Below are positions 7,789 through 45,033 of a DNA stretch of 64,000 bases, piece after piece. The translations under genes were made by a program, and so were the position numbers. The stretch spans positions 3,242,001 to 3,306,000 of the forward strand of contig NZ_CP092487.1 of the NCBI RefSeq assembly GCF_022429565.1, given 5' to 3'. A model generated the notes under the pieces. The model was not told where the DNA came from, made no database searches, and saw nothing but the letters and a program-made list of their open reading frames with translations. Within the stretch, counting starts at the first letter, position 1; the number at the start of each line of letters is the position of its first letter. This stretch comes from Lutibacter sp. A64 (lineage in GTDB: Bacteria; Bacteroidota; Bacteroidia; Flavobacteriales; Flavobacteriaceae).

Positions 7789-9417
7789 ATGAGATTCTTA
7801 AAATATAAAAATAGAGTTATGGTTAAAAACAGGTTAGTTGTATTGTTTTTTTTAATGAGTGTTTTTCTTATTTATAGTTGTAAAAAAAGTGAAAAGGTTA
7901 GTGAATCAAGTAGACCAAATATTGTATTTATTATGAGTGATGACCATGCTTATCAAGCAATTAGTGCTTATGGTGAAGGGTTGAATAATACACCTAATAT
8001 TGACAGAATTGCAACGGAAGGAGCAATTTTTAATAGAGGTTTTGTAACAAACTCTATTTGTGCGCCTAGTAGAGCTGTAATGCTTACTGGAAAACACAGT
8101 TTTGTAAATGGCAAGGTAGACAATGTAAGTCCTTTTAACTGGGACCAAGATAATTTTGCTAAATCATTACAAAAGGCGGGTTACCAAACAGCTATGATTG
8201 GTAAAATACATTTAGATGGATTGCCTCAAGGTTTCGATTATTCTAATGTGCTTCCTGGACAAGGGAAGTACTATGCTCCAGAATTTATTGAAAATGGCGT
8301 AAAAAAAACATATCCAGGTTATGTTACTAAAGTAACAACAGACATTGCTTTAGATTGGTTAGAAAATAAAAGAGATAAAGAAAAACCTTTTTTAATGTTA
8401 TATCATCAAAAAGCGCCTCATAGAACATGGATGCCAGAAGAAAAGTATTTAACGTTAATGGATGATAAAACTTTTGATCCACCAACCAATTTTTTTGATG
8501 ATTACGAAGGAAGACCAGCGGCGGCAGCACACGAAATGGGTATATATAAAGATATGGATTTAGTATATGACCTAAAAATGTTAGATAAAGAAGGCGAAAT
8601 TAAAACAAAGTATAGAGAAGCTTTTCAGAGAAATTATGATAGGATGGATGCCGAGCAAAAAGCTGCTTGGGATGCTTATTACGATCCTATTATTGATGAG
8701 TTTAAAGCAAATAAATTAGAAGGTAAAGAATTGGCTCTTTGGAAATACAATAGATATATGCATGATTATTTAAGAACAATACAGTCTGTAGATGATGGTG
8801 TTGGTGAAGTTTTAGATTATTTAAAAGCTAATGGACTTGAGGAAAATACAATTGTTGTATATACATCAGATCAAGGGTTTTATTTAGGAGAACACGGTTG
8901 GTTTGATAAACGTTTTATGTATGAAGAATCTTTTAGAACCCCAATTTTGGTTAAATATCCAAAAGAAATTAAACCAGGAACAGTGATAAATGAACTAGTA
9001 CAGAATTTAGATTTTGCACCAACCTTTTTAGATTATGCCGGTGTAGATATTTCAAAAGAAATTCAAGGTGAATCATTTAGAAAATTAGTAAATGGAGAAG
9101 TGAGCGAGTGGAGAGATGCTATTTATTATACTTATTATGAGTTTCCTGGAGAACATCATGTTAAACGTCATTATGGAGTAAGAACTGACCGTTATAAATT
9201 AATTCATTTTTATTATGATATTGATCAATGGGAATTATACGATTTAGAAAAAGATCCATCAGAAATGAAAAACGTATATAACGATCCAGCGTATGCAAGT
9301 GTAAAAGAAGATATGCACAAGCAACTAGAAAAAATGAGAACTCAATATGGAGATAGTGATGAGCTTAATCAAAATAATTTAGACCATTATCTAAAAGCAA
9401 AAAATATAAAACACTAA
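7789..9417 (+). CDS. S1-family sulfatase lipoprotein, GlcNAc-6-sulfatase/mucin-desulfating type
   Basis: Predicted formylglycine sulfatase and first gene of the long plus-strand series. The ATG at 7789 is preceded by a purine-rich aaggga; the ATG at 7819 would give a more compact lipoprotein signal, so the start is uncertain. From 7789 the lipobox Cys is residue 31 (LIYSC), the metal-binding SDDH follows at 50-53, and the maturation motif CAPSR begins at Cys91. The late segment DQGFYLGEHGWFDKR, then YEE, is characteristic of the N-acetylglucosamine-6-sulfatase-like branch (family knowledge). It shares these features and VLPGQG with the sulfatase at 17749. It is followed 18 bp later by a GH29 gene. 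Sulfate position specificity is inferred only. Confidence 0.88.
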   Translation: MRFLKYKNRVMVKNRLVVLFFLMSVFLIYSCKKSEKVSESSRPNIVFIMSDDHAYQAISAYGEGLNNTPNIDRIATEGAIFNRGFVTNSICAPSRAVMLTGKHSFVNGKVDNVSPFNWDQDNFAKSLQKAGYQTAMIGKIHLDGLPQGFDYSNVLPGQGKYYAPEFIENGVKKTYPGYVTKVTTDIALDWLENKRDKEKPFLMLYHQKAPHRTWMPEEKYLTLMDDKTFDPPTNFFDDYEGRPAAAAHEMGIYKDMDLVYDLKMLDKEGEIKTKYREAFQRNYDRMDAEQKAAWDAYYDPIIDEFKANKLEGKELALWKYNRYMHDYLRTIQSVDDGVGEVLDYLKANGLEENTIVVYTSDQGFYLGEHGWFDKRFMYEESFRTPILVKYPKEIKPGTVINELVQNLDFAPTFLDYAGVDISKEIQGESFRKLVNGEVSEWRDAIYYTYYEFPGEHHVKRHYGVRTDRYKLIHFYYDIDQWELYDLEKDPSEMKNVYNDPAYASVKEDMHKQLEKMRTQYGDSDELNQNNLDHYLKAKNIKH

Positions 9418-9435
9418 TAAAAAAATAGTAATCAT

Positions 9436-10488
9436 ATGAAAAATATTAATATAACTTTTTTACTACTTCTACTATTTATTACTGCTGGTTTTGCTCAAGA
9501 AAAAATTAATTATTTGGAGGAATCTAAAGAAGATTTTAGTCAAAGAATGCAATGGTTTAACAATGCTAAATACGGCATGTTTATTCATTTTGGCTTGTAT
9601 AGCCAATTAGGAGGTATTTATAAAGGGAATGATGAAGGTCGTTATGCCGAATGGATACAAGGAAATCAAAATATACCTTCAGAAGAATATGTAAAATTAA
9701 TCGATACTTGGAATCCAAAAGATTTTAATGCTAATAAAATCGTTAAAATAGCCAAAAAAGCAGGGATGAAATATTTAGTTGTGACCACAAAACACCATGA
9801 AGGTTTTTGTTTATGGGATTCTAAATATACCGATTTTGATATTGCAAATACACCAATGAAAGGTCGTGATTTTGTAAAAGAATTAGCAGACGCATGTAAA
9901 AAGCATAATATCGTGTTTGGAACCTATTACAGCATTACAGATTGGCATCAAGGTTCTCAATATGTTGAAGAAGGAAAAGGTTGGGGAATGATGAAAATGC
10001 ACGAAGGTAGAAAAGAAGAATATGTGCAATATTTAAAAAATCAAATAAAAGAATTAATAGAAAATTACGATTCTAACATTATTTGGTTCGATGGTGATTG
10101 GGTAGATTGGTGGACTTTAGAAGATGGAAACGATCTGTACCAATATATTAGAGAGTTAAAGCCAAGTATTATTATTAATAATCGAGTTTCAAAAAGAAAA
10201 ATATTTAAGAAAGATTTTGGAACTCCAGAACAGTTTCACTTAGAAAATAAAGTAGATTATTATTGGGAAGCATGTTATACTATGAACGATTCTTGGGGCT
10301 TTAAAATAAAAGATACAGATTGGAAAAGTCCTCAAGAAGTGTATGAGAAATTAAAAGATATCAACGGAAAAGGAGGAAATTTTTTATTAAATATTGGTCC
10401 TGATGGTGATGGAAATGTACCAAAAGAATCTGTTAAGATTTTAAAAAAAGTAGGTAAGATGTTAGCTAAAGAAGAAAAACAAAAATAG
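9436..10488 (+). CDS. GH29 alpha-L-fucosidase, secreted
   Basis: Retaining exo-alpha-L-fucosidase releasing L-fucose from glycan termini. A type I signal peptide (LLLLFITAGFAQ) directs it to the periplasm or outside. The GH29 barrel opens with YGMFIHFGLYS near residue 46, continues with TTKHHEGFCLWDS near 117, and carries the predicted nucleophile Asp219 in WFDGDW. A candidate acid/base Glu lies in GTPEQF near 265. The protein is short (350 residues), essentially a bare catalytic domain without the C-terminal beta-sandwich of many GH29 enzymes. The next gene starts one base after its stop codon, so translation is probably coupled. Confidence 0.92.
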   Translation: MKNINITFLLLLLFITAGFAQEKINYLEESKEDFSQRMQWFNNAKYGMFIHFGLYSQLGGIYKGNDEGRYAEWIQGNQNIPSEEYVKLIDTWNPKDFNANKIVKIAKKAGMKYLVVTTKHHEGFCLWDSKYTDFDIANTPMKGRDFVKELADACKKHNIVFGTYYSITDWHQGSQYVEEGKGWGMMKMHEGRKEEYVQYLKNQIKELIENYDSNIIWFDGDWVDWWTLEDGNDLYQYIRELKPSIIINNRVSKRKIFKKDFGTPEQFHLENKVDYYWEACYTMNDSWGFKIKDTDWKSPQEVYEKLKDINGKGGNFLLNIGPDGDGNVPKESVKILKKVGKMLAKEEKQK

Positions 10489-10489
10489 G

Positions 10490-12022
10490 ATGGTTGCAAA
10501 AAAAATAGTTTTAAGTATTGCACTTTTAACATTAGTGATAATAGGTTGTAAAGATGCTAAAACCCAAGGAACACAAATAAAAGAAGAAGTAAATAAGCCA
10601 AATATTCTTTTTTTATTTACTGATGACCAAAGAGGTGGAACTATAGGAGCGATGGATAAATACGATGTGAAAACGCCTAATATGGATCAATTGGTTGAAA
10701 ATGGAACATCTTTTACAAACTCATATATTTTAGGAGCAACAAGTGCAGCGGTATGTTCGCCAAGTAGAGCTATGCTTATGACCGGGCGCCATTATTTTAA
10801 TATAGAACCTAATGTATATGCGCAATTTGCATTTAATAAAGAAGATAGAGGTAAAAGCGATAAATTAACCTTTCCAGAATATTTTAAAACAAAAGGTTAC
10901 GAAACTTTTGCTACAGGAAAACAACATAACGGTGAAATTTGGTTAGAACGAGGTTTCAGTCAAATTAAATCGGCTTTTTTAGGTGGAATGACTACGCATT
11001 ATGGTACAAAAGTAAAAGATTATACACCAGAAACAGGTTGGTCTGCACCATATAAAAATACCGAAAAATTTAGTAGTGAAGTTTTTGCTGATGCTGCAGT
11101 TGGATTTTTAAATAGTTATAAAAAAGAAGACCCATTTTTAATGTATGTTGCATTTACAGCACCACACGATCCGCGTACACCACCAAAGGAAGATAAGGAT
11201 ATGTATCCTGAAGAAGGTATTGTATTGCCAGAGAATTTTATGTCAGAACATCCATTTGAAATTGCTGATGATAGAATAAGAGATGAAATGTTAGCTCCTT
11301 TTCCAAGAACAAAAACAAGACTTCAAAAAGAAATTTCAGATTACTATGCTATGATAACAGCTACGGATGTTCAAATTGGTAGAATATTACAAGCTTTAGA
11401 AACTTCAGGAAAAGCAGATAATACCATTATTGTTTTTGCTGGAGATAATGGTTTGGCTTTGGGACAACATGGCTTATTAGGTAAACAAAGTGTGTATGAA
11501 CATAGTGTGAGTGTACCATTAATTTTTGTTGGACCAAATATTCCTAAAAATCAAAAAACAGATGCTTTGGCGTATTTACACGATGTTTTTCCAACCTTAT
11601 GTGGTTTAACAGGATTTGAAATTCCAAAATCGGTTGAAACAGAAGATTTAACACCGGTACTTAAAGGGAATAAAAAAGAAGTAAGAAATAGTATGATGTA
11701 TGCCTATAATTCTTGGCCAGGTGATCTTTTAAATAAAAATAGAAAACACAACCCTGGCGGAGGACATAGAGCTGTTAGAAAAGGAGATTTTAAATTAATA
11801 GTAAGTGCAAAACACGATGTCTTTACATATCAATTATTTAATTTATCTAAAGATCCGTGGGAACTAAATAATTTAATTGAAGATAAAATTTTTAAATCTG
11901 TAAAAGATGATTTAATGAAAGAGTTACAAAAATTAATGGATGAAGCTGGAGACCCAGCAGATTTGTCTAAAAATGAATTCGGACTTTTTGATAATCCGGA
12001 AGATTATAACTTTAAAAAATGA
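10490..12022 (+). CDS. S1-family sulfatase lipoprotein
   Basis: Predicted glycan sulfatase. The lipobox IIGC puts the anchored Cys at residue 20. The metal-binding TDDQRGG lies near residue 44 and the maturation motif CSPSR begins at Cys89, followed by MLMTGRH. A second metal-site region, FAGDNGLALGQHGLLGKQ, lies near residue 317, and a C-terminal YNSWPGD..RAVRKGDFKLI segment follows. The pattern is distinct from the GlcNAc-6-sulfatase-like pair in this cluster and nearer to heparan N-sulfatase/choline-sulfatase-like S1 members, but I cannot assign the subfamily. It sits between two GH29 fucosidases, so a sulfated fucose or neighbouring sugar is a reasonable guess for its target. Confidence 0.87.
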   Translation: MVAKKIVLSIALLTLVIIGCKDAKTQGTQIKEEVNKPNILFLFTDDQRGGTIGAMDKYDVKTPNMDQLVENGTSFTNSYILGATSAAVCSPSRAMLMTGRHYFNIEPNVYAQFAFNKEDRGKSDKLTFPEYFKTKGYETFATGKQHNGEIWLERGFSQIKSAFLGGMTTHYGTKVKDYTPETGWSAPYKNTEKFSSEVFADAAVGFLNSYKKEDPFLMYVAFTAPHDPRTPPKEDKDMYPEEGIVLPENFMSEHPFEIADDRIRDEMLAPFPRTKTRLQKEISDYYAMITATDVQIGRILQALETSGKADNTIIVFAGDNGLALGQHGLLGKQSVYEHSVSVPLIFVGPNIPKNQKTDALAYLHDVFPTLCGLTGFEIPKSVETEDLTPVLKGNKKEVRNSMMYAYNSWPGDLLNKNRKHNPGGGHRAVRKGDFKLIVSAKHDVFTYQLFNLSKDPWELNNLIEDKIFKSVKDDLMKELQKLMDEAGDPADLSKNEFGLFDNPEDYNFKK

Positions 12023-12028: not shown

Positions 12029-13687
12029 ATGGGTTTTAGGTTTTCATTTAAATATAATTTTAAAACGAGTCTTCAAAAAACGGTTGTTACTAATCTGTTT
12101 TTTGTTGGCTTATTTTTTCTATTAAATACAAGCACAATTATAGCGCAAGAAAATCAATTTTCTTGGAATGAACTTGCAGAACAATACGAATGTCCAGAGT
12201 GGTTTAGAGATGCTAAGTTTGGTATTTGGTTTCATTGGGGACCACAAAGTGTACCTGAACAAGGTGGTGGTTGGTATGCTCGCCACATGTATATGAAAGA
12301 TGTGGGGCGTCAAAAATTTGGTAAAATGGCAAACGCATACCATCTTCAAACGTATGGACATCCTTCAGAATTTGGTTTTAAAGATGTAATTAACGAGTGG
12401 AAAGCTGAAAAGTTTGATGCAGCAGCCTTAATTAAATTTTCAAAGAAAAACGGAGCTAAATATATTGTGGCCTTAGCAAATCATCACGATCATTTCGATT
12501 TATTTGATTCGTCTTTTCATTCTTGGAATTCTGTAAATGTAGGTCCCAAAAAAGACATTATAGGTGAGTTTGAAAAAGCAACACGTAATGCAGGTTTAAA
12601 ATTTGGAGTTACTAGTCATGACGATCGTTTTTTAAATTGGTGGTTACCTGCTTTTGGAGCAGATACTAAAGGTGAAAAAGTAGGTGTGCCATATGATGGA
12701 CGTTTAACAAAAGAAGATGGTAAAGGTCTTTGGTGGGAAGGTCTAGATCCAGCAGATCTTTACGGTCCAGTACCAGAAAATAGAACACCAGAGGTATTAG
12801 AAGCTATAAAGAAAAATTGGCAAGAACGCCATATTGAATTGGTAAATAAATACAATCCAGATTTATTGTATAATGATGGGTTTAGCTTTACTTATGGAAA
12901 ATATGGTAAAGAAGTAGCTCGTACCTTATACAATAATAATTACAATAAAAATGGATCAATACAAGCAGTAATGCTTTTAAAAAGAACTGAAAAAGGTACA
13001 GTTAACGAAGTAGAGTCAGGAGGAAGTAACACACTTAGAGCCGAGCCTTGGCAATCTGAAATAACATTTACCGATTGGTTTTATAAAAAAGACCGCCATT
13101 TAACACATAATTCGCGTACCATTTTAGAAATGCTTATTGAAGCCGTTAGTAAAAATGGAAACTTACTTTTAAATATTGAATTAAATCCAGATGGTACAAT
13201 TCCACCAGAACAAAAAGTAATTATTGATGTTGTTGGAGATTGGTTAGCTATTAATGGAGAAGCCATTTATAAAACGAGACCATGGAAAGTTTATGGAGAT
13301 GGTAAAAGTATTCGTGGTGAAAATGAAGTTTTACAAAATGGAGAGATTAGAAATGCAGGAGATGATATTGCCGAAAAAACAAAAAAAGGAGAACATTACA
13401 ATCAAAGAACTACTGCTTCTGCTGAATTTGCTTCGGATGAGGTTAGATTTACAACAAAAGGAGGTGATTTTTATATCATTGTAATGAACCCTAAAAAAGG
13501 TGATTTTAAAATTCCAACATTGGGTTTAAATGTTGCTATGAACCCTGGGAAACTTAAAAAATTAACAAGATTAGACACAAATAAAAAAGTGAAATTTAAT
13601 CAAAAAAAAGAATCTACAACTATAACCATTCCAGCAATAAATGGTAAAAGTTATCCAATAGTTTTAAAAGCAAAATTTGTAAAGTAA
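12029..13687 (+). CDS. GH29 alpha-L-fucosidase, long form
   Basis: Predicted exo-alpha-L-fucosidase. The N-terminus is unusually long before the hydrophobic core (a 40-residue leader ending STIIAQ) and no alternative Met is available. Catalytic-domain landmarks are WFRDAKFGIWFHWG near 58, GGGWYARHMY near 80, NHHDHFDLFDSSFHSW near 151, and the predicted nucleophile Asp283 in LLYNDGF. KNGNLLLNIELNPDG marks the end of the barrel, followed by a C-terminal beta domain of about 130 residues. It is much longer than the GH29 gene two positions upstream and belongs to a different GH29 subgroup, suggesting different fucose linkages are handled. It is spaced 6 bp from the preceding sulfatase and 4 bp from the following GH30. 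Confidence 0.88.
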   Translation: MGFRFSFKYNFKTSLQKTVVTNLFFVGLFFLLNTSTIIAQENQFSWNELAEQYECPEWFRDAKFGIWFHWGPQSVPEQGGGWYARHMYMKDVGRQKFGKMANAYHLQTYGHPSEFGFKDVINEWKAEKFDAAALIKFSKKNGAKYIVALANHHDHFDLFDSSFHSWNSVNVGPKKDIIGEFEKATRNAGLKFGVTSHDDRFLNWWLPAFGADTKGEKVGVPYDGRLTKEDGKGLWWEGLDPADLYGPVPENRTPEVLEAIKKNWQERHIELVNKYNPDLLYNDGFSFTYGKYGKEVARTLYNNNYNKNGSIQAVMLLKRTEKGTVNEVESGGSNTLRAEPWQSEITFTDWFYKKDRHLTHNSRTILEMLIEAVSKNGNLLLNIELNPDGTIPPEQKVIIDVVGDWLAINGEAIYKTRPWKVYGDGKSIRGENEVLQNGEIRNAGDDIAEKTKKGEHYNQRTTASAEFASDEVRFTTKGGDFYIIVMNPKKGDFKIPTLGLNVAMNPGKLKKLTRLDTNKKVKFNQKKESTTITIPAINGKSYPIVLKAKFVK

Positions 13688-13691: not shown

Positions 13692-15095
13692 ATGAAAAAT
13701 ATGAAGAAATTAGTTTTTGTACTTGTCGTTTTTTTTGCAATTACTCAATCTGTAAACGCTCAAAACAATACAAAGGTATATTATGTTAAGCTTGTTGAAG
13801 GTGAAATAATTAAACCAAATCCTATAGAAGAAATAGTTGGAGAGTCAACAAAATCTGGTATTTCAGTTCGTATCTATCCAGATATTACGTTTCAAACTAT
13901 AGAAGGTGTTGGAGGTGCTTTTAACGAAATTGGAGGAGAAGCATTAATGTCGTTAAGTGAAGAACAACGAAATGACATAATGAAAAATTTATTTGATAAA
14001 AATGTTTCAAATTTTTCTGTTTGTAGAACAGCTATTGGTTCAAGTGATTTTGGAATAGATGCTTATAGTTATAGCGAAGTACCTAACGATTTTAAAATGA
14101 GAAAATTCTCTATAGAAAGAGAAAAAACAAGTGTTATTCCATATATTCAAATGGCTTACAAATACAATCCAGATATGGAAATATTTGCATCACCTTGGAG
14201 CCCTCCAGGATGGATGAAAGAGTCAGGGCTTATGGATAGAGGTAAAGAATTTCCAGCTAAAAATGTTTTAAAAAATGATCCTAAAATTTATAAAGCATAC
14301 GCATTATATTTTTCTAAATATGTAGCCGCTTATGCTAATGAAGGCATAAAAATAGATAGAATAGTGGTGCAAAACGAACAAGATATTAATACAAATTATC
14401 CTTCTTGTAATATACCTCCAAAACAAATGGGTGAATTTGTTATTAATTATTTACGTCCTCAGTTTAAAAAAGATAATACACCTTCAGAAATTTGGGCAGG
14501 TACTTTTAGAACAGCAAAACAGCTTGATGGTTTAGAATTTGTTCTCAATAAAACTTGGAGAGAGGCAGTTGATGGTATTGGTATACAGTATACAAGTTCT
14601 ATGCAAATAGAAAATATGCGTGCAGTTTATCCAGAAATTAAATTATTACATACTGAAGGAATTTGTTATGGAGGAAAAAATAGTATTAAAGAAGCATTTT
14701 CTAGGTTTAATGAAATAGCTTCTTACATAAACCATGGAGCTCCGAATTTTTGTTATTGGAATATGATTTTAAATGAAACATCTTCTAGTGGTTGGGGTTG
14801 GAAACAAAATAGTTTAATAAAAATAGATCGTAAAAATAAAAAAGTAACCTACAATCCAGATTATGCAGTTATGGCGTTGTTTGGACAGTTTATGCGCTCA
14901 GGAATGAAAAGAGTTGCTTCGGCTTCTTGGTACGGAGATACAATTACAGTAGCAGATGATAAAAATGTATATCTATTTATTAAAAATGATTCCGATAAAT
15001 CAAAAACGTTTGATGTATGGTTAAAAGATAATCAAGCTAAAATAGTAGATATTCCTGCTCAAACAGTAGCTGTAGTAGAAGTAAATTATAAGTAA
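13692..15095 (+). CDS. GH30 glycoside hydrolase, secreted
   Basis: Retaining TIM-barrel hydrolase of the beta-glucosylceramidase-like GH30 group, whose members cleave beta-glucosides, beta-1,6-glucans, beta-xylosides or beta-fucosides. The signal peptide ends VNAQ. FQTIEGVGGAFNEIGG near 67 is the family entry motif and SPWSPPGWMK follows near 167. The predicted acid/base is Glu229 in VVQNEQD and the nucleophile Glu322 in LLHTEGICYG. A C-terminal beta-sandwich with the usual ITVADDKNVYLFIKN segment completes the 467 residues. It forms a pair with the following GH3 gene, and the same pair reappears in reverse order at 23035-27147. Substrate is not resolvable from sequence. Confidence 0.88.
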   Translation: MKNMKKLVFVLVVFFAITQSVNAQNNTKVYYVKLVEGEIIKPNPIEEIVGESTKSGISVRIYPDITFQTIEGVGGAFNEIGGEALMSLSEEQRNDIMKNLFDKNVSNFSVCRTAIGSSDFGIDAYSYSEVPNDFKMRKFSIEREKTSVIPYIQMAYKYNPDMEIFASPWSPPGWMKESGLMDRGKEFPAKNVLKNDPKIYKAYALYFSKYVAAYANEGIKIDRIVVQNEQDINTNYPSCNIPPKQMGEFVINYLRPQFKKDNTPSEIWAGTFRTAKQLDGLEFVLNKTWREAVDGIGIQYTSSMQIENMRAVYPEIKLLHTEGICYGGKNSIKEAFSRFNEIASYINHGAPNFCYWNMILNETSSSGWGWKQNSLIKIDRKNKKVTYNPDYAVMALFGQFMRSGMKRVASASWYGDTITVADDKNVYLFIKNDSDKSKTFDVWLKDNQAKIVDIPAQTVAVVEVNYK

Positions 15096-17748: not shown

Positions 17749-19341
17749 ATGAGCAAAAAAATTAAATGGATTTTTCCTCTAGCAATTGTTTTTATAAGCT
17801 TTATTAGCTGCAAAGAAACTAAAAAAACAGAAGCTGAAACCATAGCAGAACGACCTAATATTTTATACATAATGTCCGATGATCATACCTCGCAAGCTTG
17901 GGGTGTTTATGGTGGAATTTTAAAAGATTATGTACATACACCAAATATTTCACGTTTGGCAGATGAAGGAGTTGTTTTAGACAATTGTTTGGTTTCTAAT
18001 TCTATTTGTTCACCAAGTAGAGCTACTATTCTTACAGGGCAGTATAGTCATATTAATGGAGTTAAAATTTTAGCTGGTGGTTTACCTCCAAAACATCCTA
18101 CAATTGCAGGAGTTTTACAACGAGGTGGTTACCAAACAGCAATTATTGGAAAATGGCATTTAAAGCAAGAGCCTACAGAAGAGTTTGATTATTATAGCGT
18201 TTTACCAGGGCAAGGACGTTACTGGAATCCAATATTAAAAACCAAAGAAAATTGGGAAGATTATATGGGAGGTGGAAAAGAATATGAAGGATTTAGTACA
18301 GATGTTATTGCTGATAAAACTATTGACTGGATAGAAAATAGAGATACTTCAAAACCTTTTATGATGATGTGCCATTTTAAAGCAACTCATGAACCTTTTG
18401 ATTATCCAGAACGCTTTAGTCACTTATACAGAGATGAAGATATTCCTGTGCCGAGTACATTTTACGATCAAGGAGCTGAAACTACAGGGAGGTCTTTTAA
18501 AGGACAATCTGTAGATAATTTAAAGAAAAGATATTTAAGAGCTTCAGAAGATCCAGATAATGTGCCAGGATATATGCAATATCCAGAATTGCCATTTTCG
18601 GTTGATGGTTTAACAAATGATGAAGCACGTTATAAAACATATCAAAAATATGTGAAAGATTTTATGCGTTGTGGAGCTGCAATAGATGATAATATTGGAA
18701 AATTATTAGATTACCTTGAAGCATCTGGTCTAGCAGAAAATACAATAGTAATTTATACTGCAGATCAAGGCTACTTTTTAGGTGAGCACGGTTTTTTTGA
18801 TAAACGATTAATTTATGAAGAATCTATTCATATGCCGTTTGTTATTAGGTATCCAAAAGAATTACCTGCCGGAACACGTAATACAGATCTTATAGAAAAT
18901 GTAGATTTTTCAGCTTTATTTGCTGATTATGCCGGACTTGAATATCCAGAAACAATGCAAGGTCATAGTTTTAGAGAAAATTTAAAGGGAAATACTCCAA
19001 AAGATTGGCGTAAATATGCTTACTACCGTTATTGGGATCATTCAATAGATCGTCCTGGGCATTTTGGTATTAGAGGTGAGCGGTACAAATTAGCTTTTTA
19101 TTACGGGAATGGACTTAAAGAAAATGGTTTTACTAAAGAAAATCAGCCTAAAAAGTTTTGGGATTTCTTTGATTTAGAAAAAGATCCTCAAGAAACTCGT
19201 AATGCTTATAATGACCCAGAATATCAAGAAATTATAAAAGAAATGAAAGCAGAAATATTAAAGCAAAGAGAAGCTTTAGGTGATACAGATTCTGATAATT
19301 CAGAAATACACGAAATTATAAAAGCACACTGGAATGATTAA
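17749..19341 (+). CDS. S1-family sulfatase lipoprotein, GlcNAc-6-sulfatase-like
   Basis: Predicted formylglycine sulfatase with lipobox FISC (Cys21), SDDH at about 43-46 and maturation motif CSPSR at Cys87. It has the segments VLPGQGRYW and YFLGEHGFFDKR that it shares with the sulfatase at 7789. The two are therefore paralogues of one S1 subfamily resembling N-acetylglucosamine-6-sulfatases. Its last 8 bases overlap the start of the following GH95 gene, implying translational coupling between sulfate removal and a fucosidase. It is 530 residues long, the usual size. Confidence 0.88.
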   Translation: MSKKIKWIFPLAIVFISFISCKETKKTEAETIAERPNILYIMSDDHTSQAWGVYGGILKDYVHTPNISRLADEGVVLDNCLVSNSICSPSRATILTGQYSHINGVKILAGGLPPKHPTIAGVLQRGGYQTAIIGKWHLKQEPTEEFDYYSVLPGQGRYWNPILKTKENWEDYMGGGKEYEGFSTDVIADKTIDWIENRDTSKPFMMMCHFKATHEPFDYPERFSHLYRDEDIPVPSTFYDQGAETTGRSFKGQSVDNLKKRYLRASEDPDNVPGYMQYPELPFSVDGLTNDEARYKTYQKYVKDFMRCGAAIDDNIGKLLDYLEASGLAENTIVIYTADQGYFLGEHGFFDKRLIYEESIHMPFVIRYPKELPAGTRNTDLIENVDFSALFADYAGLEYPETMQGHSFRENLKGNTPKDWRKYAYYRYWDHSIDRPGHFGIRGERYKLAFYYGNGLKENGFTKENQPKKFWDFFDLEKDPQETRNAYNDPEYQEIIKEMKAEILKQREALGDTDSDNSEIHEIIKAHWND

Positions 19342-34999: not shown

Positions 35000-35263
35000 A
35001 TGAGGTGTTGTTTTATCATATTATTTATTGTTTTATTTTCAATTAATAATGGGTTTTCTCAAGATACAATTCCTTTAACAAAAGATATAGTTGTTGTAGC
35101 TACAGGTGAAGGAATCCGTACTATTATTTATACAGATTCAACCTTTTATAAATTTATTCTAGAAGATAATTATTATTTAAAAGAACAGGATAATGTAGGT
35201 GTAAATAGAATAGACAATGTTGTAAAATGGAGATATTCAATTCTAAATAAGATAAAAAACTAA
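35000..35263 (+). CDS. Small secreted protein of unknown function, 87 residues
   Basis: I do not recognise this family. A signal peptide (CCFIILFIVLFSINNGFSQ) leaves a mature domain of about 66 residues rich in beta-branched and aromatic residues (IVVVATGEGIRTIIYTDSTF). It starts 20 bp after the GH29 stop and ends 8 bp before the next enzyme gene, on the same strand and with similar codon use, so it is very likely translated as part of the unit. It has no catalytic motif. It could be a periplasmic accessory or binding protein, but that is only a guess. Confidence 0.7.
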   Translation: MRCCFIILFIVLFSINNGFSQDTIPLTKDIVVVATGEGIRTIIYTDSTFYKFILEDNYYLKEQDNVGVNRIDNVVKWRYSILNKIKN

Positions 35264-37431: not shown

Positions 37432-38769
37432 ATGAGAAGTGTGTTTTTATTTTTATTTTCAACTTTGTTGTTGTCTTGTTTGGGGCAAAAAAAACAAATT
37501 ACCAAACAACCTAATATTGTTATTATTGTAGCGGATGATTTAGGTTATGGAGATATTTCTAGTTTTGGAAACACTAAAATACAAACTCCAAATATTGATG
37601 CGTTGGCAACTACAGGTATTAAGTTTACAGATTTTCACTCTAATGGAGCAGTTTGTAGTCCCACAAGAGCAGCATTAATGACCGGTAAATACCAACAACG
37701 TACAGGAATTGAAGGAGTAGTAACGGCTAAAAGCCATAGAGATGTTGGTTTAAGTTTAGCACAAGTTACTATTGCCGAAGAACTAAGTAGCTATGGTTAT
37801 AATAGCGCTATGTTTGGTAAATGGCATCTTGGTTATGCAAAAGATTACAATCCATCTTTACAAGGATTTCACCAGTTTGAAGGATTTGTAAGTGGAAATA
37901 TAGATTACCATGCACATATAGATCAAGAAGGTTATTTAGATTGGTGGAAGAATGTAGAAATTAAAAATAGGGAAGGGTATTCAACAGATTTAATTACAGA
38001 AAATGGAGTTAAATTTATAAAAGATAATAGTTTACAAAAAACAGCCAAACCTTTTTTCCTCTACTTACCTCATGAAGCACCACATGGTCCTTACCAAAGA
38101 AGAATAGATAAAGTATTAAGAGAAGTTGGTAGTTCTATTACAAAACCAGTGGTTAAGGATAGTATTGCTTCTATTTATAAAGAAATGGTAGAAGTTATGG
38201 ATGAGGGTGTTGGTAAAATTATTAAAACGCTTAAAGAAACAGGACAGTTCGAAAATACAATTGTTATTTTCTTTTCAGATAATGGCGCTAATCATTTTGG
38301 AAATAATGGAGTTTTAAGAGGAGGAAAAGGAAGTGCTTATGAAGGGGGAAGTAGAGTGCCTGCAATGATTAGTTATCCTGCTATTATTAAAGATGCAATT
38401 GTAAGTGATCAAACTGTTTTAACTATGGATATTTTGCCTACATTATTAGATTTTATAGCGCAAAAGCCAAGTGCTAAAGATGTAGATGGAATAAGTATAA
38501 AAAACCATTTATTAAATCAAACAAAACTTCCTGAAAGAGATGTGTATTTTGGTTACGGAAGAAAAAGCTTTATTAGAAGTGGAGATTGGAAGTTGATTAA
38601 AACCCAATTAAAAGAAGGTTCTAAAATGGAACTTTATAACTTGTCGAACGATCTTAAAGAAAGAAATAATTTAAGTGAAGAAAAACCAGAATTGGTAGAA
38701 AAACTTCTAAAAAAATTAAGATTATGGGAAAATGAAGTTACAGAAGGAGTTGAAAAAATTTCAAAATAG
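37432..38769 (+). CDS. S1-family sulfatase lipoprotein with CSPTR motif
   Basis: Predicted glycan sulfatase, 445 residues, with lipobox LLSC (Cys16). ADDLGYGD lies at 34-41. The maturation motif reads CSPTR from Cys75, with Thr in place of the commoner Ser; the formylglycine-forming core C-x-P-x-R is intact. FFSDNGANHFGNNG near 282 and GSRVPAMISYP near 317 are usual for arylsulfatase A-like members. It is separated from the beta-helix gene by 48 bp, the largest gap inside the unit, and followed after 29 bp by a GH20 gene. Specificity is unknown. Confidence 0.88.
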   Translation: MRSVFLFLFSTLLLSCLGQKKQITKQPNIVIIVADDLGYGDISSFGNTKIQTPNIDALATTGIKFTDFHSNGAVCSPTRAALMTGKYQQRTGIEGVVTAKSHRDVGLSLAQVTIAEELSSYGYNSAMFGKWHLGYAKDYNPSLQGFHQFEGFVSGNIDYHAHIDQEGYLDWWKNVEIKNREGYSTDLITENGVKFIKDNSLQKTAKPFFLYLPHEAPHGPYQRRIDKVLREVGSSITKPVVKDSIASIYKEMVEVMDEGVGKIIKTLKETGQFENTIVIFFSDNGANHFGNNGVLRGGKGSAYEGGSRVPAMISYPAIIKDAIVSDQTVLTMDILPTLLDFIAQKPSAKDVDGISIKNHLLNQTKLPERDVYFGYGRKSFIRSGDWKLIKTQLKEGSKMELYNLSNDLKERNNLSEEKPELVEKLLKKLRLWENEVTEGVEKISK

Positions 38770-38798: not shown

Positions 38799-41096
38799 AT
38801 GAGAAAACATATACTATTAATCTTGTTAACTGTACTTTTGGTGTCTTGTAAACAAACAAACCCATCGTTTAACAAAGAAGAAATATCAATACTTCCAAGA
38901 CCTTTAAATTTTCAATTAAATGAAGGTTCCTTTCAAATTGATGCAACTACAAAAATCATCCTTCAAAATGAAAGTCAACAAAAAGCTGTAAATTACTTAA
39001 AAGGTTTATTTAATAAAGCGGCGGGTTATAATTTAGAAGTGTTAAATATTACTACAAAATCAGCAATTGTTTTTGAAACAGTTGAAGGTTTAAAAATAGG
39101 AGCATATCAGCTAGTGGTAAATCCAACATCAATTTTAATAAAAGCTTCAGAAGAAAGCGGTTTTTTTAATGCTGTTCAAACCATTCGTCAATTATTGCCT
39201 GTTGTAATAGAAAATAAAGAAAAAACAACTGCAAATTGGTTTGTGCCAAGTGTAGTTATTGAAGATGAACCTCGATTTGAATGGAGAGGAATGCACATGG
39301 ATTTTAGCCGTCACTTTTTCAATATAGACGAAGTAAAATTTTTTTTAGACTATATGGCTTTGTATAAGTTAAATACCTATCATATGCATTTAACAGACGA
39401 TCAGGGTTGGAGAATTGAAATAAAAAAATATCCTTTATTAACAGAAAAAGGAGCTTGGAGAACACCAAATAATCAAGATACTCTTTGTATGAATAGAGCT
39501 GTTGAAAATAAACTCTATACTATTGATGAGTCTAACTTTAAAGAAATTGATGGAGAACGTAAATACGGTGGTTTTTTCACACAAGAACAAATTAAAGAGA
39601 TTGTTGCTTATGCAGATGAAAGATGTATTACTGTAATTCCAGAAATAGATATGCCTGGTCACTTTAAATCGGCTATAGATAATTATCCGTTTTTATCTTG
39701 TAACGAAGAATCTGGATGGGATACCGTTTTTACATACCCTACTTGTTTAGGAAAAGAAACTACTTATGAGTTTATGAAAAATGTGTTGAGCGAAGTTGTT
39801 GAATTGTTTCCGGCATCTTATGTTCATATAGGAGGTGATGAGGTAAATATTGCTTCTTGGGAAGTGTGCTCTCATTGTCAAAAAGCCATCAAAGAGAATA
39901 ACTTAAAAGATGAGCACGAATTGCAATCATTTTTTAATAGAGATATAGAGCAGTTTTTACAATCTAAAGGAAAACAATTTATGGGTTGGGATGAGATTGT
40001 AAGAGGTGGATTAACAAAAGACGCAAGTGTAATGTGGTGGAGAAATTGGGCTCCAGATGCTCCAAAAATTGCTGCAAAAAATGGAAATAATATTGTAGTT
40101 ACTACTACAGCAGCTTATTATTTCGATTATTTGAATGAAGGGAATCCTTTAGAAAGGGTATATAATTACGAGCCAATTCCAGCAGATTTTACCGAAGAAG
40201 AAGCAAGTAATATATTGGGAATACAAGCAAATTTATGGTCAGAAAGAATTCCTAGTTTTAAGCGCTTACAATATCAAGCATTTCCTCGATTTTTCGCTAT
40301 ATCAGAAAACGGTTGGGTTACGCAAGAAAAAGACTTTGAAAACTTCAATAAAAGAGTAACAACACAATACGATAGGTTAGATGCTTTAGGGGTGTATTAT
40401 TATATACCAACCGTAAAAGGATTGGATAGAGAAATTGCATTTGTAGATAGCGCTACTGTAAAGTTAAATTTAGCGTATGCGTTAGAGGGAACAGAAATAT
40501 ATTATACCTTAGATGGAAGTGTACCAACAAAAGCATCTTTAAAATACGAAACGCCATTTGTTGTAAAAGATACTATTGAAATAAAAGCACGTGCTTATAG
40601 AGGAAATATTTATAACGACTTAATCTCTACAAAAGTAATTCGTAAAAATTATATCGAATCTGTACAAACTACCACTAATGAAAAAGGATTAAAGCAATGG
40701 ATACTTAAAGGAAAATTTAAAAATGTAGATGATGTTAAAACACCTACAACAACTAATTATACAAAAGTAGATGGTATTGCCTTAGGAAATTTAAAAAATG
40801 AGAAAAGATTTTCTGTAGTTTATAAAGGATATTTTAATGCTGAAAAAGATGGGATTTATGAGTTTGAAACAAGATCTGATGGCGGTGATTTATTATTTAT
40901 TGGAGATGAAACAATAGTTGATAATAGTGGTTGGCACGGACCTAGAAAACGTTATGGTAAAGTAGCTTTAAAACAAGGCTTGCATCCAATAACTATTAAA
41001 TACAGACCAAGTGACAATCCAAGAGTTATTGAAGTTAAGTATGGTTTGCAAGGAGAAACGTTGAAGTCAATTAATAGTTCAGTTACCAGTTTTTAA
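38799..41096 (+). CDS. GH20 beta-N-acetylhexosaminidase lipoprotein with C-terminal PA14 domain
   Basis: Fourth GH20 enzyme, with lipobox LVSC (Cys17). The barrel shows MHLTDDQGWR near 195 and the catalytic pair D347-E348 in HIGGDE. A chitobiase-type domain (YYTLDGSVPTKASLKYET) lies near 570. It is followed by a PA14 module (about 630-755: YFNAEKDGIYEFETRSDGG and ETIVDNSGWHG), which is unusual on GH20 and echoes the PA14 insertions of the two GH3 proteins. The total of 765 residues is full length. PA14 may hold a glycan chain near the active site (inference). It is followed by a 45-bp gap and a GH78 gene. Confidence 0.91.
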   Translation: MRKHILLILLTVLLVSCKQTNPSFNKEEISILPRPLNFQLNEGSFQIDATTKIILQNESQQKAVNYLKGLFNKAAGYNLEVLNITTKSAIVFETVEGLKIGAYQLVVNPTSILIKASEESGFFNAVQTIRQLLPVVIENKEKTTANWFVPSVVIEDEPRFEWRGMHMDFSRHFFNIDEVKFFLDYMALYKLNTYHMHLTDDQGWRIEIKKYPLLTEKGAWRTPNNQDTLCMNRAVENKLYTIDESNFKEIDGERKYGGFFTQEQIKEIVAYADERCITVIPEIDMPGHFKSAIDNYPFLSCNEESGWDTVFTYPTCLGKETTYEFMKNVLSEVVELFPASYVHIGGDEVNIASWEVCSHCQKAIKENNLKDEHELQSFFNRDIEQFLQSKGKQFMGWDEIVRGGLTKDASVMWWRNWAPDAPKIAAKNGNNIVVTTTAAYYFDYLNEGNPLERVYNYEPIPADFTEEEASNILGIQANLWSERIPSFKRLQYQAFPRFFAISENGWVTQEKDFENFNKRVTTQYDRLDALGVYYYIPTVKGLDREIAFVDSATVKLNLAYALEGTEIYYTLDGSVPTKASLKYETPFVVKDTIEIKARAYRGNIYNDLISTKVIRKNYIESVQTTTNEKGLKQWILKGKFKNVDDVKTPTTTNYTKVDGIALGNLKNEKRFSVVYKGYFNAEKDGIYEFETRSDGGDLLFIGDETIVDNSGWHGPRKRYGKVALKQGLHPITIKYRPSDNPRVIEVKYGLQGETLKSINSSVTSF

Positions 41097-41141: not shown

Positions 41142-43355
41142 ATGGTTAGGTCTTATAAAATGAAATATTATAATCAGATTATTCTGCTTTTATTTAGTTG
41201 TATGTTTTTACTTTTTAGTTGTAAATCTAATTATGGAATAGAAGATGAAGAAAATAGGCCTACTGGTTTATCAGTAGAATTTATAAGACAACCAGAAACT
41301 GTTTTAATAATAGATCAAAAACCTGAATTTTCTTGGGAATTACCAAAAACTGCAGTTAAGCAGTTGTCGTATCAAATTTTAATAGCTTCTTCTTTAGAAT
41401 TGATTGAAAATAACAAAGGAGATGTTTGGGATTCAAGAAAAATAGTGAGCGGTCAATCTATAAATATAGAGTTTGAAGGAGCTCCATTAGAGGTTGGTAA
41501 AACCTATTTTTGGAAGGTGAAAATATGGGATGCAGCAAATAAAGAGAGCCTTTACTCAAAATTTCAAAGCTTTAGAATAGGAGCAAAAGAAAATATAATA
41601 ACTAGTGCAAATAGTTTTCAAATAGAAAGTTTAAAACCTGTAAAATTTCAAAAGTTAAATGCTGATTCATATTTTATAGATTTTGGTAAAGCTGCGTTTG
41701 CAACACTAGAATTTAACTATAAAACAACAAAAAAAGATACACTTGTTTTTCATATTGGAGAGCAACTTGTAGAAAATAGAATAAACAGAAAACCTAAAGG
41801 AACTATTCGGTATCAAAAAATTAAAGTTCCTGTAAATCCAGAACAAAAGAAATATACTTTATCTATAAAGCCAGATAAAAGAAATACAAAACCTGTAGCT
41901 ATAAAATTACCAGATTCGTTTCCTGTTTTAATGCCTTTTAGATATGTTGAGATAGAAAATTCAAAAGGAGATTTACAATTAAAAGATTTTACTCAAATTG
42001 CATATTTTAGCTATTGGGAAGATAATACAAGTCATTTTGAAAGTTCTAATCCAATTTTAAATCAAGTTTGGGATTTATGTAAATACTCTATTAAAGCAAC
42101 CACATTTGCGGGTTTATATGTTGATGGCGACAGAGAACGTATTCCTTATGAAGCCGACGCTTATTTAAATCAATTAAGTCATTATACTACCGATAGAGAA
42201 TATGCAATGGCAAGACAAACATTAGAATATTTTATGGAACATCCAACATGGCCAACAGAATGGCAACTTCATGTGGCATTAATGTTCCAAGCCGATTATA
42301 TGTATACCGGAAACACGGAACTTATTGAGAAATATTATGAAGACTTAAAGCATAAAACCTTAGTAGAATTAAAGCGAGAAGATGGATTGATAAGTTCTGA
42401 TAAAGCTACTCCGGAATTCATGAGAAAATTAGGATTTAAAAATCCGAAAGATAAGTTGAAAGACATTGTAGATTGGCCACCAGCACAAAAAGATACCGGT
42501 TGGAAACTAGCAACAAAAGAAGGGGAGCGAGATGGTTTTGTTTTTAAACCAATTAATACTGTTATTAATAGTTTGTACTATAGAAATCTAGAAATTATGG
42601 CAGAATTTGCTGAAATTTTAGGTAAGACAGACGAAGCTAAAATGTACGAACAATTAGCAATACAAGTAAAGGAATCTATTAATAATAAGTTGTTTAATGC
42701 TAGTATAGGAGCTTATATAGATGGTGAAGGTACAAACCATGCCTCTCTTCATTCAAATATGATGGCATTGGCTTTTAATATAGTTCCAGAAAAAAATATT
42801 GAATCGGTTGTAACTTTTATTAAAAGTAGGGGAATGGCTTGCAGTGTTTACGGTGCGCAGTATTTGTTAGAAGCATTATACAATGCAAATGAAAGCGACT
42901 ATGCTTTAGAATTAATGACTGCTACCCACGATAGAAGTTGGTACAATATGATTAAAATTGGATCTACAATTACACTGGAAGCTTGGGATATGAAATATAA
43001 ACCAAATGCCGATTGGAACCATGCTTGGGGAGCGGCACCAGCTAATATTATTCCAAGGTATTTATGGGGAATTCAACCTAAAACACCAGGGTATGCAGTT
43101 GCAAAAATAAAACCGCAATTAAAAAACTTAAAATCAAGTTCTATTGTTGTTCCAACTTTAAGAGGACAAATTAAAGCTACTTATATTTTACAAGATAAAA
43201 TTGAAAGATACATTATAGATATTCCTGCTAATATGAATGTTGAATTTGTGGTAAAACCAACTTCAAAAGTAAAAGTGAATAATGAAATTAAATCGAGTAA
43301 ACTTGGAGTTATTTACTTAGAAGCGGGTAATAATATTGTAGAAATAATTAATTAA
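41142..43355 (+). CDS. GH78-type alpha-L-rhamnosidase lipoprotein, compact
   Basis: Predicted inverting exo-alpha-L-rhamnosidase. The first ATG is at 41142; the ATG at 41160 gives a tighter lipoprotein signal ending LFSC and may be the real start. An Ig-like N-domain (PEFSWELPKTAVKQLSYQIL near 70 onward) precedes an alpha/alpha-barrel with the conserved GLYVDGDRERIPYEAD near 324-339, which includes the likely general acid Glu332. Later landmarks are WPTEWQLHVALM near 370 and HAWGAAPANIIPRYLWG near 627. At 737 residues it is shorter than most GH78 enzymes (commonly 900-1100) and appears to lack a jelly-roll domain. The adjacent kinase and aldolase, which look rhamnulose-type, could serve rhamnose as well as fucose. 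Confidence 0.85.
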   Translation: MVRSYKMKYYNQIILLLFSCMFLLFSCKSNYGIEDEENRPTGLSVEFIRQPETVLIIDQKPEFSWELPKTAVKQLSYQILIASSLELIENNKGDVWDSRKIVSGQSINIEFEGAPLEVGKTYFWKVKIWDAANKESLYSKFQSFRIGAKENIITSANSFQIESLKPVKFQKLNADSYFIDFGKAAFATLEFNYKTTKKDTLVFHIGEQLVENRINRKPKGTIRYQKIKVPVNPEQKKYTLSIKPDKRNTKPVAIKLPDSFPVLMPFRYVEIENSKGDLQLKDFTQIAYFSYWEDNTSHFESSNPILNQVWDLCKYSIKATTFAGLYVDGDRERIPYEADAYLNQLSHYTTDREYAMARQTLEYFMEHPTWPTEWQLHVALMFQADYMYTGNTELIEKYYEDLKHKTLVELKREDGLISSDKATPEFMRKLGFKNPKDKLKDIVDWPPAQKDTGWKLATKEGERDGFVFKPINTVINSLYYRNLEIMAEFAEILGKTDEAKMYEQLAIQVKESINNKLFNASIGAYIDGEGTNHASLHSNMMALAFNIVPEKNIESVVTFIKSRGMACSVYGAQYLLEALYNANESDYALELMTATHDRSWYNMIKIGSTITLEAWDMKYKPNADWNHAWGAAPANIIPRYLWGIQPKTPGYAVAKIKPQLKNLKSSSIVVPTLRGQIKATYILQDKIERYIIDIPANMNVEFVVKPTSKVKVNNEIKSSKLGVIYLEAGNNIVEIIN

Positions 43356-43365
43356 AAAAAGAGTA

Positions 43366-45033
43366 ATGAGCAAATTAAATTTACTTAAAAATTCAGCATT
43401 AATAGTTTTTGTATTTATAAGTGTTTTAGCAACTAAGGTTATTGGTCAAAATATTATTTCTAATCCTTTAATTTTAGATATGGTGCATCATAACCCTGGT
43501 GAAACACCGTATGATTCTAAATATAATGATCCAGCAGTAATTAAAGAAATGGGATATAATGGTAAGGTATATTTCCTTTTTGAATCTCCTGCGTTAGCCA
43601 TTAATTGGGAATCTGTAGATGCAGCTATTTTACCAAAAGGTACAGAAGATAGAAAATGGGTTGATGCAAAAGCAGCACAAATAAAAAAAATGCATGCAGC
43701 TTGTAAAGCCGAAGATATAGCTATTTATGCAATGTCTGATCTTGTTTTGTTTCCTAAACGATTAATTGAAAAATATAACATTGAAAAAACTTTTGGAAAC
43801 CCGAATGATGCATTAACAGAAAAGCTGATTCGTGCTCAAATTAATGAGATGTTTGATCAGTTTCCAGATCTTGATGGATTGGTAGTGCGTATTGGAGAAA
43901 CGTATCTGCACGATGCGCCATATCATAAAGGAGCAATTAATGATAAAACAAGTCCACAAAAAACAATAATCCCGTTAATAAATATCTTAAAGGAAGAAAT
44001 TTGTGAAAAAAGAGACAAGCAACTTATTTTTCGTACTTGGGGTGCATTTGATAGAAATATGGACGATTATATGGCTGTAAGTAATGCTATAGAGCCACAT
44101 AAAAATTTAATAATTAGTATAAAACATGTTGAAGGTGATTTTCATAGATCAAATGAATTTAGTAAAGTTATTGGTCAAGGGCGTCATCGTCAAATTATTG
44201 AAATTCAATCTGCTCGCGAGTATGAAGGAAAAGGAGCATATCCAAATTATATTGCCAATGGTGTAATTGATGGTTTTGAAGAGCATGCTAATATGCCAGA
44301 AGCACAAATTAATAGTTTAAGTGAGTTTGTAGAAAAAAAACCAGAATTATATGCCGGCGTATGGACTTGGTCTCGTGGTGGAGGATGGGATGGTCCATAT
44401 ATAAAAGATGAAATGTGGTGCGATTTAAATTCTTGGGTAATGGCACAATGGGGACAAAATACCGATAAAAGTGAAGCATTTATTTTTAACAGATATGCCA
44501 CAGAGCGTTTAGGTTTAAAAGGTGATGATGTTGCTAAATTTAGAAAGTTATGTTTGCTTTCGGCTGAAGCAGTAGTTAGAGGTAGAAATAGTACGTATAG
44601 AGATATGAATCCGTGGTGGACAAGAGATCAAGGTATTGCATGGCCAATGGTAGTTAAAGGTACTAATGAACAAAAGAGAAACCTAGTGCAAAAGGATGAA
44701 GCAATTGCAAAATGGAAAGAAATTGTTAAGTTGGCAAAATCAATTCATTGGCAAAATAAAGCAACTAAAAACCATGTAGTTGGGTCTTCAAAATATGGTT
44801 TAAGACTGTATGAAATATATAGAACACTTATTTATATGAAATATGCAGACGATAATGGAAATGGTAAAGACGTTCAAAAATGGATTAAAGCATACGATAA
44901 AGCTTGGAAGAATTATAACAAGCTTGCAAAAAAATATAGTAGTATAGCAACTCTATATACGCAAGATTATGAGCGTCATATAGCAAATAATGCAAATCGT
45001 AAAGTAAATAAATTAAGAGCGCAGGATAAGTAG
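43366..45033 (+). CDS. Unassigned secreted protein, possible TIM-barrel glycoside hydrolase
   Basis: I cannot place this 555-residue protein in a named family. A signal peptide ends TKVIGQ. Features that suggest a retaining-type barrel are LVVRIGETYLHDAP near 172, FRTWGAF near 220, SIKHVEGDFH near 252, IIEIQSAREYEG near 280 and WTWSRGGGWDGPYIKDEMW near 331. These include several conserved-looking acidic residues at strand ends and an aromatic-rich loop like a sugar platform. The overall pattern loosely recalls alpha-glucuronidase-type barrels, but I would not assign one. It is the last gene of the 22-gene unit, 10 bp after GH78, and is followed by a strong terminator. As no recognised endo-acting enzyme is present, this is the best candidate for a backbone-cleaving or new exo-activity. 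Confidence 0.6.
   Translation: MSKLNLLKNSALIVFVFISVLATKVIGQNIISNPLILDMVHHNPGETPYDSKYNDPAVIKEMGYNGKVYFLFESPALAINWESVDAAILPKGTEDRKWVDAKAAQIKKMHAACKAEDIAIYAMSDLVLFPKRLIEKYNIEKTFGNPNDALTEKLIRAQINEMFDQFPDLDGLVVRIGETYLHDAPYHKGAINDKTSPQKTIIPLINILKEEICEKRDKQLIFRTWGAFDRNMDDYMAVSNAIEPHKNLIISIKHVEGDFHRSNEFSKVIGQGRHRQIIEIQSAREYEGKGAYPNYIANGVIDGFEEHANMPEAQINSLSEFVEKKPELYAGVWTWSRGGGWDGPYIKDEMWCDLNSWVMAQWGQNTDKSEAFIFNRYATERLGLKGDDVAKFRKLCLLSAEAVVRGRNSTYRDMNPWWTRDQGIAWPMVVKGTNEQKRNLVQKDEAIAKWKEIVKLAKSIHWQNKATKNHVVGSSKYGLRLYEIYRTLIYMKYADDNGNGKDVQKWIKAYDKAWKNYNKLAKKYSSIATLYTQDYERHIANNANRKVNKLRAQDK

Follow-up and report, generated by a model that had tools for sequence, protein, structure and literature searches.

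A 22-gene enzyme train of Lutibacter sp. A64 is probably one piece of a split utilization locus, likely for sulfated, fucosylated and xylosylated N-glycans

In Lutibacter sp. A64, 22 genes, mostly for sulfatases and glycoside hydrolases (GH), follow one another at positions 7789–45033 of a 64,000-nucleotide stretch (the window; bases 3242001–3306000 of the complete 4.03-Mb chromosome), and no SusC/SusD importer pair accompanies them. Comparison with related genomes indicates that this train (g01–g22) probably makes up the enzyme arm of a polysaccharide utilization locus (PUL) whose parts lie together in relatives but were separated here by rearrangement, its importer now lying at 2.49 Mb and an N-glycan core partner at 1.71–1.745 Mb. 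The train would probably digest sugar chains that are sulfated and rich in fucose, from the glycoproteins of algae or animals, and a shared promoter site suggests that the separated pieces are probably still one regulon. Positions in the millions are chromosomal; smaller ones refer to the window unless another genome is named.

Position of the SusC/SusD pair

The whole chromosome was searched with PF14322, PF07980 and TIGR04056. The union of the profiles gave 33 SusD-type genes (32 above a cut-off) and 35 SusC-type genes above cut-off, none of them within 360 kb of the train: the nearest pair to the right of the window, at 3.666 Mb, is 360 kb away from it, and the nearest to the left, at 2.57 Mb, is 669 kb away. 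The initial annotation was therefore right that no SusC/SusD is seen with the train, and a pair just upstream of the window in the same operon, which it had named as the finding that would overturn its view, is not present. Two TonB receptors that are closer, at window positions +70021 and −22652, were rejected as the importer, since they reach 80 and 67 bits where the SusC cut-off is 368. Another cluster in this genome, with four sulfatases (2920567–2932870; L144), likewise has no SusC/SusD within ~347 kb.

The pair that belongs to the train was identified from a complete genome of the same genus, G439. A single BLASTN alignment of 44 kb at 91.5% identity joins G439 32123–76155 to window 1007–45019, and the gene order in G439 is xylose genes, SusD, SusC, sulfatase, GH20, GH20 and then all 22 train genes in order. 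The SusC/SusD stretch beside this block aligns at 90% to 2491558–2496760 of the Lutibacter sp. A64 chromosome, where a SusC/SusD pair (2491620–2496648, 0.75 Mb from the train) is orthologous to that of G439 with 91/95% protein identity. These alignments put the breakpoint between SusC and the sulfatase, ~1 kb into the window. The 2.49-Mb pair is still beside its xylose genes, with its orientation relative to them flipped, which implies more than one rearrangement event. The SusC–GH20 arrangement also occurs in outgroups, G397 and G335 among them, so the split is the derived state. On this gene-order comparison, a rearrangement in Lutibacter sp. A64 appears to have split a locus that relatives keep together. 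Under a strict definition of a PUL, a tandem SusC/SusD within the locus, the window genome has none here; under a broad one, in which a distal pair belongs to the enzymes, G439 orthology and synteny together with a shared promoter site (below) assign the 2.49-Mb pair to the train. The earlier suggestion that the uptake genes lie elsewhere thus agrees with what was found.

An IS3-type element (named by eye) lies ~430 bp left of the synteny breakpoint. Its transposase is represented by the 3' part at 1–571 (plus strand; ORF, open reading frame, starting at −262), and the element seems to interrupt an AraC-type regulator gene between window positions −1069 and 960 (both by eye). It was rejected as a proven cause of the split and is regarded as a mere neighbour, given its distance from the breakpoint and its place inside that gene.

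Identity between the window genome and G439 is mosaic, from 76 to 100% per kb, which hints at recent exchange. Around ~2–5 kb of the window it reaches 99–100%, the 303-bp divergent promoter being identical, and other parts fall to 76–85%. This mosaic, together with the train GH95, which is found at 89% or more only in Lutibacter sp. A64 and G439 among 38 same-genus genomes, would also suit acquisition of the unit by transfer without SusC/SusD, the 2.49-Mb pair then being an unrelated transporter. We consider this highly improbable: G439 holds both the train and, adjacent, the ortholog of that exact pair at similar identity; the outgroups have the same SusC–GH20 arrangement; and the 2.49-Mb pair keeps the shared site.

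The train in relatives outside the genus

Fifteen train-bearing loci outside the genus were compared, from Mariniflexile (2), Tamlana (2), Formosa algae, Cellulophaga (2), Maribacter (3), Flavobacterium algicola, Flavivirga (2), Polaribacter and genome G335. The threshold for counting a train gene as present was 60% identity, except for g17, which was counted at any level. Thirteen loci were covered end to end and hold 16–21 of the 22 genes, always in the same order, so the gene-order comparison proposed in the initial annotation shows the order of the train kept in all of these and in G439. Two were only partly fetched (G401, with 8 + 5 train genes seen, and G400, with 9).

A SusC gene lies within the locus in 14 of the 15. 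In Maribacter luteus, SusC–SusD immediately precedes g01 and shares its strand, and in Formosa algae it follows g22. In G400, the N-glycan core and SusC/SusD are on another contig; because one end of both contigs carries the same NagB-type gene, adjacency to the train is suggested. For the SusD of the distant pair of Lutibacter sp. A64, the best match falls within the train locus in 13 of the 15 genomes, the exceptions being G400, where it is on the core contig, and G399, with no match at E 1e-60. A further locus (L053), not counted among the 15, has SusC/SusD right after g22 in its 18-kb piece. The description of the train as an enzyme-only unit therefore holds for Lutibacter sp. A64 and fails for the system, SusC being in the locus of G439 and of nearly all these relatives. 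In another genome of the same genus (G269, contig C6, ~294–302 kb, L149–L150), a SusC (38%) and a SusD (43% identity to the distant SusD of Lutibacter sp. A64) occur with a g01 homolog (79%) among other sulfatases, and no further train gene is present in the stretch fetched.

A shared direct-repeat site

In the gap 5' of g01, Lutibacter sp. A64 and G439 share a conserved block, the rest of the gap being much less conserved, and several other genera have this block ahead of the train as well. The block belongs to a direct repeat with a period of ~21 bp (TCGAA ... GTTrTTnGTCGAA). We take this spacing to resemble that of LytTR sites. A 44-bp matrix was built from 30 sites in the 15 non-genus loci, which were picked by the core pattern inside the fetched loci and are not a genome-wide sample; a first pattern missed many SusC sites and was then widened. 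Of the training sites, 12 are upstream of SusC1, 4 of SusC2, 1 of another SusC, 4 of GH20, 4 of g01 and 5 of other genes. The matrix was run over 324 kb of the 4.03-Mb chromosome and, in relatives, over the fetched loci.

Within these 324 kb the matrix gave six sites above 12 bits, of which five were above 20; 20 Markov sequences gave on average 0.2 and 0.0 sites above these two thresholds. The operator-like site is found upstream of the GH20 gene that precedes the train (2954–2997, plus strand, 33.1 bits), 5' of the train itself (7643–7686, plus strand, 27.2 bits, overlapping a TAnnTTTG −7-like element at 7658), upstream of the core SusC (31.3 bits) and upstream of the distant SusC at 2.49 Mb (2491376–2491419, 23.0 bits). 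The sixth site (13.5 bits) is 54 kb left of the window. In G439 the sites score 35.9 bits at SusC, 33.1 at GH20 and 27.2 at g01. Of the 33 other SusC promoters of Lutibacter sp. A64, 20 were tested, and none scores above 4.5 bits. The promoter consensus T[TA]TG-N17-22-TAnnTTTG did not rise above chance (3 against 3.5 in shuffles on the plus strand), so only the conserved block was used; Rfam gave no match in the window. The most evident candidate regulator of the shared site is the LytTR pair next to the core.

The N-glycan core module and the substrate

A module of GH92, GH130, CBM9-like and GHL10-like genes adjoins the train in 13 of the 15 non-genus relatives. These 13 core modules carry an SSF symporter in 12 cases and LytS and/or LytTR genes in 12 (both in 11), and all of them hold an aspartylglucosaminidase (AGA)-type gene (10), PNGase F (5) or both. 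Lutibacter sp. A64 has its own core module at 1713516–1744732, with PNGase F (PF09112, 6.4e-60; PF09113, 2.2e-54), an AGA-type gene (PF01112), GH92, GH130, SSF, a LytS/LytTR pair and its own SusC/SusD. The combination that defines an N-glycan system, a GlcNAc-Asn-cleaving enzyme with GH92 and GH130, is thus linked to the train through the 13 relatives and forms a separate locus in this genome. That the core is a piece cut from the train locus was considered and rejected: six of the nine genes compared with G397 are less identical to it than any fused relative is, the exceptions being AGA, GH92b and a kinase. This low identity, and the GH130 gene at 89–100% in 9 of the 38 same-genus genomes (this one included), make the core look native to the genus. 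An alignment, with position mapping of our own, gives the PNGase an Asp where the group-2 enzymes, which tolerate core α-1,3-fucose, have Gly (PMC9522356). It looks group-1-like, so a glycan core without core α-1,3-fucose is predicted.

The layout and content of the train follow the initial annotation closely. Its 22 genes, all on the plus strand, comprise 21 ORFs of at least 100 aa and one of 87 aa; the 21 intergenic gaps measure between −8 and 48 bp, and 12 do not exceed 10 bp, and the overlaps claimed at 19334 and 29805 are both seen in the ORF coordinates. The claimed families were matched by Pfam, save that the SGNH-type hydrolase g12 (27161–27949) stays below the cut-off (28.3 against 32.9 bits). 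Among the six S1 sulfatases, g01 (7789–9417) is nearest mucin-desulfating and GlcNAc-6-sulfatases (PDB 7p24, E 7.1e-183; 5g2v, E 2.5e-164), g07 (17749–19341) an exo-L-galactose-6-sulfatase (7lha, E 1.9e-121), g14 (29805–31298) the S1_15-type structures (7oze, 9bas) and g19 (37432–38769) the 4S-carrageenan sulfatases (6prm); g03 (10490–12022) is without a close solved relative (best match 5g2v, E 1.1e-44), and the sixth is g09 (21647–23017). The fucosidase families are represented by three GH29 genes, g02 (α-L-fucosidase, 9436–10488), g04 (12029–13687) and g16 (33678–34979), and one GH95 gene of α-L-fucosidase type, g08 (19334–21643). Of the two GH3 genes, g06 (15101–17725) is nearest β-xylosidases (7zb3, E 7.6e-131; xylosidase model NF041776 at 1030 bits, below its cut-off of 1250), the other being g10 (23035–25707). 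GH20 is encoded by g13 (27952–29805) and g20 (38799–41096), GH92 α-mannosidase by g15 (31321–33672; TIGR01180 above cut-off) and a GH78 type by g21 (41142–43355). The GH30 genes are g05 (13692–15095), glucosylceramidase-like by PDB with an endo-1,6-β-glucanase NCBIfam match below cut-off, and g11 (25717–27147), also with NCBIfam matches only below cut-off. The β-helix protein g18 (35272–37383) is GH141-like (Pfam GH141_M below cut-off; PDB 5mqp, BT_1002, E 6.3e-50). Between g16 and g18 lies the 87-aa g17 (35000–35263), with a signal-peptide-like start and a conserved position, 37–59% identical in relatives where seen and 87% in G439; it has no NCBIfam match, and the Pfam scan did not include it.

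The last gene, g22 (43366–45033, 555 aa), has no Pfam or NCBIfam match of its own. Sixteen of 20 aligned homologs match PF07488 at E ≤ 1 (best 1.8e-6), and a PDB profile search gave E 0.17. These profile matches suggest a distant relative of the GH67 middle domain, seemingly new as far as the literature was searched. The protein is present in 11 of 397 genomes of the family (the window genome included, two being weak partial matches), and was also found at 30 named loci. A second type of locus holding the g22 family, mostly with GH95 and sulfatases, occurs in Flavobacteriia (among L062–L064, L066–L074 and L078). Members 60–71% identical occur in Pontiellaceae, another member of the Verrucomicrobiota, Kiritimatiellota and Lentisphaeria, an identity that suggests transfer across phyla.

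From the nearest relatives of g01, g06 and g07, the four GH20 (the two of the train and two before it), the GH92 and the four fucosidase-family genes, sulfated, fucosylated and xylosylated N-glycans are predicted as the likely substrate, rather than free fucoidan. The main rival is that the train degrades a fucose-containing sulfated polysaccharide (FCSP), such as algal fucoidan or diatom FCSP, and that its fusion to the N-glycan core reflects substrates that co-occur on algae. Such PULs are recognized by α-L-fucosidases together with S1 sulfatases, a combination the train holds, and predicted FCSP PULs, with a mean of 38 genes, resemble it in GH29, GH95, GH30 and sulfatase content (PMC6298971). 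Two of the train carriers, Formosa algae and Flavobacterium algicola, are species named in fucoidanase papers, and g22 occurs in other loci with GH95 and sulfatases. Endo-fucanases have been reported in GH141 (PMC12786026), the family that g18 resembles. By contrast, Pfam recognized no endo-fucanase family in the train (such models may be lacking, and GH107 and GH168 had no dedicated profile search), and the GH20 genes and the GlcNAc-6-sulfatase-type g01 indicate N-acetylhexosamine (HexNAc). Also arguing against an FCSP target are the PNGase/AGA modules to which the train is fused in 13 of 15 loci, and the site common to the train and the core SusC here and to SusC1 and SusC2 in relatives; we regard such a target as unlikely while giving it real weight.

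Where the enzymes work

The initial annotation offered a further possibility, that degradation is external and monosaccharides such as fucose enter through FucP. In a wider form of this alternative, the enzymes act outside or at the cell surface and only monosaccharides are taken up, so that SusC/SusD is not needed. A true FucP equivalog (TIGR00885, 578 bits) and fucose catabolism genes do lie directly downstream of the train, and the N-termini of the train products look exported (judged by eye). FucP, however, is also compatible with inner-membrane fucose uptake. Eleven products of the set are predicted lipoproteins by a home-made lipobox finder, among them g01, g03, g07, g11, g15, g19, g20, g21 and a doubtful g09. 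Two acidic residues at +2 to +6, the kind of lipoprotein surface-export signal described in PMC5080379, occur in none of the 11, compared with 26 of the 30 SusD of this genome that have a lipobox (P = 4e-7). No type IX secretion tail domain was found in Pfam or NCBIfam scans of the unit. The lack of both features favors periplasmic enzymes, and hence import before digestion, over purely external digestion. As G439 and other relatives also pair the train with SusC/SusD, external digestion with monosaccharide-only entry appears improbable.

The proposed pathway and the evidence against it

Taken together, the pieces would work as follows. PNGase F would release N-glycans or glycopeptides, and the oligosaccharides would pass into the periplasm through the distant SusC/SusD and/or the core's own pair, as synteny and the shared sites suggest. 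There, going by the enzyme families, with specificities predicted, the train would strip sulfate (six S1 sulfatases), fucose (GH29/GH95), xylose (GH3), HexNAc (GH20) and mannose (GH92), exposing the core. The core module may then finish the mannose–GlcNAc–Asn stump, while FucP and the neighboring fucose catabolism would take the fucose. The common direct-repeat site, perhaps bound by LytTR, would hold the pieces in one regulon.

Several observations weigh against this interpretation, which rests on sequence comparison. The flipped pair at 2.49 Mb requires more than one rearrangement, and the locus of G399 holds a second SusC type only. The train is not fused to the core in Lutibacter sp. A64 or in G439, Maribacter luteus has no core beside the train, and Pfam, run on 40 of the 43 ORFs listed for the window, detected neither PNGase nor AGA there. 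As for the shared site, that of the distant SusC is weaker than its G439 counterpart (23.0 against 35.9 bits), a strong site of 28.9 bits at 1713221–1713264 (L141), 3' of the core SusD, is without an assigned target, and the core stretch of G439 has no site above 12 bits, the fetched stretch stopping short of that core's SusC; the scan itself covered 324 kb only. The home-made lipobox finder and the doubtful g09 limit the argument for a periplasmic location. The two GH30 and the GH78 fit no clear place in an N-glycan, their NCBIfam matches being below cut-off only, and the composition of the train also fits FCSP PULs.

Genes flanking the train

The run of 22 genes stands as first delimited, and the related set begins earlier. 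As the block collinear with G439 spans window 1007–45019, the divergent S1 sulfatase at 1001–2842 (minus strand; PF00884), which in G439 adjoins SusC–SusD on the same strand, belongs to the same gene set, as do two GH20 hexosaminidase lipoproteins at 3146–5503 and 5527–7158 (plus strand; Pfam; 100% and 94% identical to G439). Downstream, 45140–49198 (minus strand) carries an FGGY kinase of fucose kinase type, L-fucose isomerase (fucI by NCBIfam) and a class II aldolase. An AraC regulator, aldehyde dehydrogenase, FucP, RhaM mutarotase and LutA/B/C-like genes follow at 49306–56536 (plus strand; both groups by Pfam). The GH26, SSF, GH130 and AGE-epimerase genes at 56825–62206, without SusC/SusD nearby, are likely a β-mannan module. 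The 60-kb flanks of the window hold mostly housekeeping-like genes (by eye).

Comparison with known systems

Split PULs are already known, and it is the assembled N-glycan system that looks new. A literature search that did not extend to preprints or to most subscription journals met no published description of the composite locus. Within that scope, four things are new: the evidence from fusion, the site held in common, the split identified here and the distant kinship of g22 to GH67. Whether all this amounts to a widely shared, unrecognized marine system for sulfated, fucosylated and xylosylated N-glycans, with a train of ~20 genes including a new GH67-like family, a PNGase/AGA core and one LytTR-type operator, separable into three chromosomal pieces and still one regulon, is in our judgment evenly balanced. 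The locus provides ~20 candidate enzymes in order, together with an importer and an operator-like site, and has cultured relatives in Formosa algae, Mariniflexile, Maribacter and Tamlana. More generally, missing SusC/SusD can stem from rearrangement. Because rearrangement can separate SusC/SusD from the enzymes, PUL callers that require adjacency miss such systems, and a promoter-site search can rejoin the pieces.

The closest precedent is the carrageenan regulon of Zobellia galactanivorans, in which a sulfatase-rich enzyme locus without susCD and a distal susCD form one regulon, the distal pair sitting inside the locus in other Bacteroidetes (PMC5698469). That system acts on another glycan with other enzyme families, and its proof came from RNA-seq and mutants (PMC5698469), whereas here the split is seen against a collinear genome of the same genus and the pieces are linked by an operator-like site computationally only. 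The plant N-glycan systems of gut Bacteroides share PNGase, GH92, GH130, GH3 β-xylosidase, GH29 and SusC/SusD, and are likewise spread over several loci (PMC9522356); one sulfatase is mentioned in the part of that report on which we draw, compared with six sulfatases and four fucosidase-family genes in one train here. Marine Flavobacteriia have large sulfatase/GH29/GH95 or sulfatase/GH92 sets beside SusC/SusD (PMC6298971, PMC9723552). As far as the portions of these papers drawn on here go, they are assigned to free polysaccharides (FCSP, glucuronomannan), glycoprotein targets being merely suggested, as for GH92-rich PULs of North Sea Flavobacteriia, in which FCSP PULs were also predicted (PMC6298971); in the present case, relatives have the train fused to PNGase F and AGA. 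Finally, a locus of similar type may be PUL3 of Mariniflexile litorale, which is GH92-rich, was predicted to serve mucin-rich substrates and belongs to one of the train-bearing genera; the likeness noted here is one of description, and the part of PMC11278836 that we draw on gives no N-glycan, PNGase or split reading.

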